A stretch of 64,000 nt of DNA. It comes from Pseudomonas viridiflava. Lineage in GTDB: Bacteria; Pseudomonadota; Gammaproteobacteria; Pseudomonadales; Pseudomonadaceae. This document shows positions 34,974-38,614 of the stretch, one piece after another. The DNA is taken from the NCBI RefSeq assembly GCF_900580865.1, contig NZ_UTBZ01000134.1, positions 124,001 to 188,000 of the forward strand, read 5' to 3'. The notes below the pieces were generated by a model. It worked only from the letters and a program-made list of their open reading frames with translations, searched no databases and was not told where the DNA came from. The position numbers and the translations under genes were made by a program. How positions within the stretch are numbered: position 1 is the first letter of the stretch; every line of letters begins with the position of its first letter.

Positions 34974-35150
34974 CCCTCACCCTAACCCTCTCCCGGAGGG
35001 AGAGGGGATTGATTGGGGGATATTTCAGAATGACACCGACCTGAAAGATCTTCACTGAATCCATAATCGACTCGATGCATCAGGTCGGTGAATCGCTCAA
35101 GACAACTCGGTCGGTCCCCTCTCCCCCCGGGAGAGGGCTAGGGTGAGGGG
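34974..35150. repeat. Inverted repeat of the CCCTCACCCTAACCCTCTCCC family
   Basis: Arms 34974-35007 and 35115-35150 are inverse complements (CCCTCACCCTAACCCTCTCCC versus GGGAGAGGGCTAGGGTGAGGG) around about 107 bases of low-similarity sequence. This is a repeat family distinct from the REP elements; a second, expanded copy is at 38341-38614. Confidence 0.85.
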
Positions 35151-35167: not shown

Positions 35168-35791
35168 TTAACCCGGAGTCAGACACTCCGGCCCATTGAG
35201 CTTCGGATCATTGATCAGATTCGCCAGCACCCGCTCGCGCAACGCCGCCGGCTCACTGGCCAGCAATCCTTGCAACACATGCAATGGCGTCTCCGGATCC
35301 AGCCACGCCGCCTGCCCCGCCTCATCGAGAATCAACGGCCGGCGCTGACTCGACGCCGGTTGAGTAATCACCGCAGTGCTCAGCCACACCTGCTCCTGCA
35401 CCGGATACGCCTCCCAGATCGCCGCGAAAAACAGCGAAGAGCCCTCCCCCGGCGTCAGCCAGTACGGCCGCTTGCGCTGGGTCCCGCGCCATTCGTAAAA
35501 ACCATTCGCCGGTAGCAGGCAACGACGCTGGCGCAGCGCCTCACGAAACATCGGCTGCTCAGCCACGGTTTCCGCCCGGGCATGCGCCGGGGTTTTCGAC
35601 AGATCGGTCAGCCATGGCGGTGTCAGGCCCCAGCGGGCGCGGGCCAACGTGCGCTGGCCATCTTCACCGACACGCAGCATCAACACCGAATCATTGGGGG
35701 AAATGTTCCACTGCGCCTGCTGATCGGCGGGAAAACCTGGCAAGGCCGCGAAGTCGCGGTTCCAGCGAAACAGGGCATAACGTCCACACAT
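35168..35791 (-). CDS. SRAP (YedK/HMCES-like) family protein with altered active site
   Basis: A 207-residue SOS-response-associated peptidase fold protein. YedK/HMCES proteins crosslink to abasic sites in single-stranded DNA through Cys2. Here Cys2 (MCGRYALF) and the glutamate of NGFYEWR (Glu100) are kept. The asparagine normally found in the NAR-ET motif is replaced by His70 (AHARAET). The histidine normally in IHxRMP is absent, the segment reading ASSQRRPLIL (147-154). The protein is full length otherwise. It may be a divergent subfamily with changed chemistry. It is transcribed toward the chemoreceptor and stands alone. Confidence 0.88.
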   Translation of the reverse strand: MCGRYALFRWNRDFAALPGFPADQQAQWNISPNDSVLMLRVGEDGQRTLARARWGLTPPWLTDLSKTPAHARAETVAEQPMFREALRQRRCLLPANGFYEWRGTQRKRPYWLTPGEGSSLFFAAIWEAYPVQEQVWLSTAVITQPASSQRRPLILDEAGQAAWLDPETPLHVLQGLLASEPAALRERVLANLINDPKLNGPECLTPG

Positions 35792-38340: not shown

Positions 38341-38614
38341 ACCCTCACCCTAGCCCTCTCCCAGAGGGAGAGGGGACTGACCGAGTTGTTTGGTCGAGGT
38401 ACATCGACCTGAAATATCAAGCCGAACTCAGATTCTGAAAAGTCCCGATCGGCTCCCTTTCCCCCTCCCCCCCCAGAGGGAGAGGGGACTGACCGAGTTG
38501 TTTGGTCGAGGTACATCGACCTGAAATATCAAGCCGAACTCAGATTCTGAAAAGCCCCCGATCGGCTCCCTTTCCCCCTCGCCCCCTTGGGGGAGAGGGC
38601 TGGGGTGAGGGGGT
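38341..38614. repeat. CCCTCACCCTAG-family inverted repeat with 112-bp tandem duplication
   Basis: Outer arms (38341-38376 and about 38573-38614) match the repeat at 34974-35150. Inside, a 112-base unit occurs twice head to tail (38361-38472 and from 38473) with almost no difference except a small C-run indel. The 3' arm then closes the element. There is no gene in this stretch of about 350 bases. Confidence 0.9.

Follow-up and report, generated by a model that had tools for sequence, protein, structure and literature searches.

A widespread Pseudomonas SRAP protein lacks two of the four YedK-type catalytic residues and appears to belong to a clade with altered active sites

SRAP proteins belong to the response to DNA damage and normally attach themselves covalently to abasic (AP) sites. 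In 2013, the cysteine of the SRAP domain was called absolutely conserved and always residue two, and absolutely conserved His, Glu and Cys were proposed as a potential catalytic triad (PMC3765255, in part). The neighbors named there for SOS-associated SRAP genes are umuDC, imuAB-dnaE2, dinB and Ku or ligase genes (PMC3765255, in part). For YedK, the sections of a mutant study cited here report that crosslinking was about 10-fold slower in H160A and H160Q and modestly slower in N75A, that Glu105 was essential and that residue 75 hydrogen-bonds to Cys2 (PMC9436759, in part). YedK C2A yielded lyase products instead of crosslinks, and the Schiff bases formed by C2A and by C2S could be trapped with borohydride. 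The double mutant C2A H160Q matched C2A in the speed of Schiff base formation and had a lyase rate 2.5-fold below it, whereas Schiff base formation was severely reduced in C2A E105Q and the lyase activity of C2A fell 25-fold without Glu105. According to the same sections, the crosslink did not reverse in E105Q and reversed at a severely reduced rate in H160Q, and with 3'-PUA ends the His160 mutants were milder while N75A was weakened (PMC9436759, in part).

We analyzed a stretch of 64,000 nucleotides from Pseudomonas viridiflava, referred to here as the window, that encodes an SRAP-domain protein of 207 amino acids with an ATG start on the minus strand (35168..35791). This assignment rests on the open reading frame, the Pfam family PF02586, alignment and an AF2 model. 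In the Pfam profile search the protein reached 153.9 bits with PF02586 (5.8e-45; curated cut-off 27.1). The AF2 model, built on a 56-sequence alignment (pLDDT 91.3, pTM 0.89), has the SRAP fold with a VIA Z of 24.4 to HMCES (6oov_B) and 23.3 to YedK (6kbz_H). With the NCBIfam model PRK09951.1 the protein scored 54.1 bits, under the curated cut-off of 349 bits; the canonical paralogue from the same genome (L001) likewise stayed under it with 185.6 bits. Alignment to YedK by phmmer and MAFFT, for which the E. coli K-12 copy (L123) served as MAFFT reference, paired Cys2 with Cys2, Asn75 with His70, Glu105 with Glu100 and His160 with Ser148. The N-terminus reads MCGR and thus provides the N-terminal Cys2 of a YedK/HMCES-type crosslinker; among the remaining catalytic residues of this type the equivalent of Glu105 is present, and Asn75 and His160 are not. 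The original prediction had described exactly this state, with Cys2 and Glu100 present, Asn changed to His70 and the histidine of the IHxRMP motif absent, and given the SRAP identity together with the replacement of both residues it was correct. A normal histidine at an offset position was looked for as well, and the only histidines of the protein are 70 and 171, the latter within the C-terminal helix (170-177) of the model. The loop preceding Arg-Arg-Pro is about 6 residues shorter than in aligned canonical SRAPs, and for this reason the window protein has a gap in the His160 column of wider alignments; the absence of His does not depend on where this gapped column is placed. By profile and fold the window protein is therefore an SRAP domain protein, but two residues place it outside the catalytic C-N-E-H group.

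YedK (PDB 6NUA, 6KBZ, 8D2M) has its fold in common with the window protein (VIA Z 22.4-23.3 over 192-199 residues), and both share Cys2, Glu105, R4, P40, W61, W67, R77, R95, T149, R162 and P164. Unlike YedK, to which it is 23-26% identical, the window protein carries His for Asn75, Ser for His160 and the shorter loop before Arg-Arg-Pro. The SRAP domain of human HMCES (PDB 6OOV, 5KO9) also shares the fold (VIA Z 24.4, rmsd 2.2 over 205 residues), the Glu and a PECL-type C-terminal end and presumably, like the window protein, begins with an N-terminal Cys, but the Asn and His of the HMCES catalytic set are missing from the window protein. A second, canonical SRAP gene was sought in the same genome and was found (G000:C52, L001), with the motifs INARVEK and IHDRRP. 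Its product shares PF02586 and is 33% identical over window residues 1-178 but, unlike the window protein, has the full C-N-E-H set.

To describe the family of the window protein (f1), we read 80 members (the 69 loci L033-L101 plus L204-L214). Position 2 is Cys in 69, Ser in 8 and Thr in 3 of them, position 75 in YedK numbering is His in 69 and Gln in 11, and the equivalent of Glu105 is kept in 80/80. His at position 160 occurs in 0/80 members, where mostly Ser, Asn, Thr, Gly or Tyr is found. The subfamily with a changed catalytic set that had been predicted from the window alone thus holds up, since the change is common to all 80 family members, and it extends to one branch of the order. The prediction had treated Cys2 as fixed, which is right for the window protein but not for the 11/80 members with Ser or Thr. 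On a tree of f1 and its outgroup position 2 changed four times, and at least two of these changes are forced by well-supported branches; the thiol may therefore have lost its importance in the window protein as well. In three genomes (G013, G028, G054) a Ser2 protein is the sole PF02586 match. Residues R4, P40, W61, W67, R77, R95, T149, R162, P164 and W175 are each invariant (80/80). Given the DNA-contacting residues that we take from the YedK and HMCES structures, the alignments indicate that the altered clade kept the residues of the single-stranded-DNA groove.

A homologue with an E-value of 1e-40 or better is encoded in 248 of 249 Pseudomonas genomes and in 240/240 of those of good quality, the sole exception being a 73% complete assembly without any SRAP match. 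Canonical copies reach no better than about 1e-21 with the window protein as query, and the genus-wide matches at 1e-40 are therefore of the altered type. Wherever residues were read in this set (L033-L101, from 69 of the 71 genomes G000-G070), the altered state was found (69/69); the two further genomes contain copies that are split by frame breaks (G034) or over contig ends (G038). The frame-broken altered SRAP of G034 (L102) could be an assembly error, and this genome has nine SRAP matches, some of them perhaps fragments. By hand count, 58/249 genomes (54 at ≥90% completeness) have a single PF02586 match, and since all 58 hold an altered-type homologue, the altered type is the only SRAP found in them. 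The median dN/dS of the altered SRAP is 0.15 (1764 pairs from L033-L101 with dS 0.15-1.2); the value of 0.39 for canonical copies comes from 60 pairs, and with few pairs unsaturated it allows no fair contrast with the altered copies. Based on tree and synteny we infer vertical inheritance, and as part of our best explanation taken whole, which we hold at about even chances, the altered SRAP would be the vertically inherited, non-SOS SRAP of Pseudomonas.

The gene next upstream of the SRAP gene, separated by a gap of 36 bp, encodes a DUF2007 protein (PF09413; 35828..36094, minus strand). It is preceded by a gene for a CPXCG cysteine-rich protein (PF14255; 36098..36280, minus strand), which is likely the first gene of the operon. 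An acyltransferase gene (PF01553; 36294..37586, plus strand, start codon unrefined) diverges from this group and marks the syntenic position; all three were assigned from open reading frames and Pfam. The arrangement suggests a CPXCG-DUF2007-SRAP operon with co-transcription of DUF2007 and SRAP. Within the fetched stretches, DUF2007 lies upstream on the same strand in 80/80 f1 loci and in 8/9 loci of another altered family (f8), CPXCG lies upstream on the same strand in 79/80 f1 loci, and the acyltransferase lies upstream on the opposite strand in 79/80 f1 and 9/9 f8 loci. That f1 and f8 share DUF2007 and acyltransferase supports their orthology independently of the tree. Between the convergent genes for SRAP and a methyl-accepting chemotaxis protein (MCP) we noticed a 35-nt inverted repeat at 34974-35149, with arms that are 94% complementary and separated by 106 nt. 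The genome contains 79 exact copies of its core 21-mer and none of the reversed control, so that the repeat resembles a dispersed element of the REP/REPIN type and perhaps also serves as a terminator here. A second, less exact repeat pair is located at 38342-38611.

No SOS-type neighbors (umuDC, imuAB-dnaE2, dinB, Ku or ligase) are present beside the window SRAP, whose neighbors are CPXCG, DUF2007, acyltransferase and MCP. SOS control of the altered SRAP was also considered at the level of exact LexA boxes, which we take to be CTGT-N8-ACAG, and was rejected: such a box occurs in 0/69 loci within 150 bp upstream of the altered SRAP gene and in 0/69 at the operon start. A single locus among the 69 carries an exact box elsewhere within the fetched stretch. 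Canonical Pseudomonas SRAP genes were scanned in the same way in a set of 31, made up of the best-scoring Pfam matches and the window genome's own copy, and 22/31 have an exact box within 150 bp upstream, 20 of these at -74 to -83; L001, the copy of the window genome, has no exact box. The best raw scores for partial boxes were 5-7 of 8 for altered and 5-8 of 8 for canonical copies. Pseudomonas thus seems to possess a housekeeping altered SRAP and often, in addition, an SOS-controlled canonical SRAP of phage type.

The canonical type represented by L001 is common in viral contigs, with 461 relatives among 462 matched stretches, of which the best 80 were kept, and it corresponds to PHROG 1599. 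Viral SRAPs are C-N-E-H in 159/160 rows and C-T-E-H in one; these rows come from 165 fetched loci after removal of short or incomplete ones, and at least one contig is present twice (L264/L299). Among 274 canonical rows, Cys2 and Asn75 are each kept in 272; because the presence of Glu and His was the criterion for picking these rows, the counts for Cys2 and Asn75 alone are informative. One canonical-branch Pseudomonas SRAP (L005 from G027) has Val for Asn75 with Cys2, Glu and His intact, and Asn75 alone can therefore vary. Together with L003 (G138), L005 represents a third SRAP type of some Pseudomonas that groups with SRAPs of the order's other families. G138 has two strongly matching SRAP copies about 10 kb apart, one of them with an in-frame TAG.

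Searches across the order show that the altered state takes several forms. The f8 proteins have lost His160 in 9/9 and keep Cys2 and Asn75, and Glu105 is replaced by Gln in 5 and Asp in 4. In f36 all four catalytic residues are gone in 16/16 proteins (Ala or Thr at 2, Cys at 75, Val, Ile, Leu or Ala at 105 and Thr, Ser or Gly at 160), and R4, P40, W61, W67, R77, R95, R162 and P164 are retained in 16/16. One f37 protein reads Ala2, Thr75, Asp105 and Ser160. When the four catalytic columns were masked, the altered proteins came together as one branch both in a first tree (95/82; 94 rows, 35 altered) and in a second (97/79, SH-aLRT 79; 93 rows, 21 altered), in which two viral rows and 25 canonical rows of other orders were included. 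The tool rated the branch in this second tree as neither fully shown nor rejected. The f37 row has a long branch and odd composition. Rows more than 82% (first alignment) or more than 72% (second tree) identical to a kept row were left out, as were L111, L116, L117 and L261 in both trees, L268 in the second and the 80 named near-copies L124-L203. We further dropped L021 and L102 for broken frames (L102 had been in a preliminary tree and was left out of the first), L002 as a duplicate of the window copy, and open reading frames below 165 amino acids. Support for a single clade of altered SRAPs in the order is fair but not overwhelming. His160 appears to have been lost once, at the root of the clade, before the other three positions changed separately in individual lineages. 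When SRAPs of the order were chosen regardless of likeness to the window protein, 85 places were found in 66/145 genomes. Residues were read at 75 of these, the other ten including several fragments: 13 are altered and all belong to f1, f8, f36 or f37, while the remaining 62 keep Glu and His. The 40 places fetched for this tally comprise 37 C-N-E-H proteins and three that keep Glu and His, one split (L485) and two without a readable Cys2 start (L494, L495). Outside the order, a profile search across 369 genomes of the class returned no altered SRAP among the 26 best-scoring places, which are all C-N-E-H. An M16 (insulinase-type) peptidase gene lies beside SRAP in 17/17 f36/f37 loci (L104, L218-L223, L225-L229, L232, L234, L236, L238, L241; Pfam was run on L218), downstream on the same strand in all six whose coordinates were inspected.

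Small second residues such as Cys, Ser, Thr and Ala permit removal of Met1, and since position 2 was read only as one of these four, a free alpha-amine is to be expected in the clade members read. The start codons of 21 loci, among them Ser2, Thr2 and Ala2 cases, were inspected and mostly have no alternative nearby upstream start in frame; one is available in L095, L099, L100, L104 and L220. Our best explanation, to which we give about an even chance, is that the window protein is a housekeeping, non-SOS SRAP from a clade of the order that kept the ssDNA groove while its YedK/HMCES catalytic set was dismantled. After removal of Met1 it would bind ssDNA as YedK does. The N-terminal amine of Cys2, assisted by Glu100, could then still react with an aldehyde present in the open form, either that of an AP site or a 3'-PUA end, to give a Schiff base and subsequently a thiazolidine. 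Without His160 a closed sugar ring would be opened inefficiently and crosslinking to ordinary AP sites would therefore be slower. A crosslink, once formed, would come off at a much lower rate. The residue at the Asn75 place, His70 here and Gln in some relatives, would only hold the N-terminus as Asn does. Each chemical step is carried over from YedK mutants, whose background evolved with His160, and a native short loop may behave differently. The altered release chemistry that had been suggested for the window protein is plausible because H160Q severely slows crosslink reversal in YedK (PMC9436759, in part). The weakening of YedK by N75A on 3'-PUA ends, reported in the same sections, may count against these ends as the preferred substrate of a protein with a changed Asn75. 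As the thiol is replaced by Ser, Thr or Ala and Glu is lost in sister lineages, DNA binding or recognition appears more likely as a clade-wide function than a stable covalent shield.

Other readings of the locus have to be weighed against this one. Misalignment or sequencing error, with a normal Asn and His merely misplaced, has a negligible chance: the nearest named Pseudomonas loci (best 80 of 552, 89-99% identical) show C-H-E without His160 in 80/80, and the window protein offers just its two histidines. The rearranged catalytic set proposed in the original prediction, in which His70 beside Cys2 replaces His160 as general acid and yields a normal crosslinker of different geometry, is now disfavored and in our view very unlikely. 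It draws on the hydrogen bond between residue 75 and Cys2 in YedK (PMC9436759, in part) and on His at this position in 69/80 f1 members. However, Gln, which is incapable of acid-base catalysis, takes its place in 11/80 and thereby makes the swap unlikely; the Cys2 thiol is absent in 11/80 and some relatives of the clade lose even Glu. In addition, f8 lost His160 but keeps Asn75 in 9/9, so the two changes are separable.

The protein might instead form a changed product, as a Schiff-base AP lyase or as a reagent for open-chain 3' ends, an improbable reading that would apply most clearly to the Ser2, Thr2 and Ala2 lineages. Lyase products are indeed made by YedK without the Cys2 thiol, and C2A H160Q keeps this activity at a level 2.5-fold below C2A (PMC9436759, in part), but the window protein retains Cys2 and would be expected to complete the thiazolidine ring. 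In f36, the proteins with Ala2 or Thr2 also lack Glu105, a loss with which the C2A lyase of YedK falls 25-fold (PMC9436759, in part). Doubtful, yet deserving more weight, is the idea that the whole clade including the window protein consists of pseudoenzymes that bind ssDNA or AP sites non-covalently, possibly together with DUF2007 and CPXCG, with Cys2 and Glu100 left as structural or vestigial residues. The retention of the groove residues in 16/16 f36 proteins that lost all four catalytic residues is in line with such a role, as are the four changes of position 2 in f1 and its outgroup, including the three genomes with Ser2 in their sole SRAP, and the absence of an exact upstream LexA box. 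A pure binder would, however, need neither Glu100, kept in 80/80 f1 members, nor Cys2, kept in 69/80. Still, with thiol and Glu gone in relatives, a pseudoenzyme role stays in contention across the whole clade.

In titles and abstracts of open-licence PMC papers we found no account of an SRAP clade with altered active sites. The clade described here is widespread and under selection, and it breaks the set of residues regarded as conserved in 2013 in a graded series: His is lost in every member read, Asn is replaced by His, Gln, Cys or Thr, Cys by Ser, Thr or Ala, and Glu105 by Asp, Gln, Val, Ile, Leu or Ala. Its members are natural separation-of-function proteins close to the studied YedK mutants H160Q, C2A, C2A H160Q and E105Q. 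We regard it as possible, though only tentatively, that this clade of core non-SOS SRAPs gave up covalent crosslinking in favor of a role as non-covalent binder of ssDNA or AP sites or as transient Schiff-base lyase. If this were true across the clade, the crosslink would not be the sole conserved function of the SRAP fold. The altered clade would make it testable whether the role for which the SRAP fold is selected is the crosslink, its release or binding.
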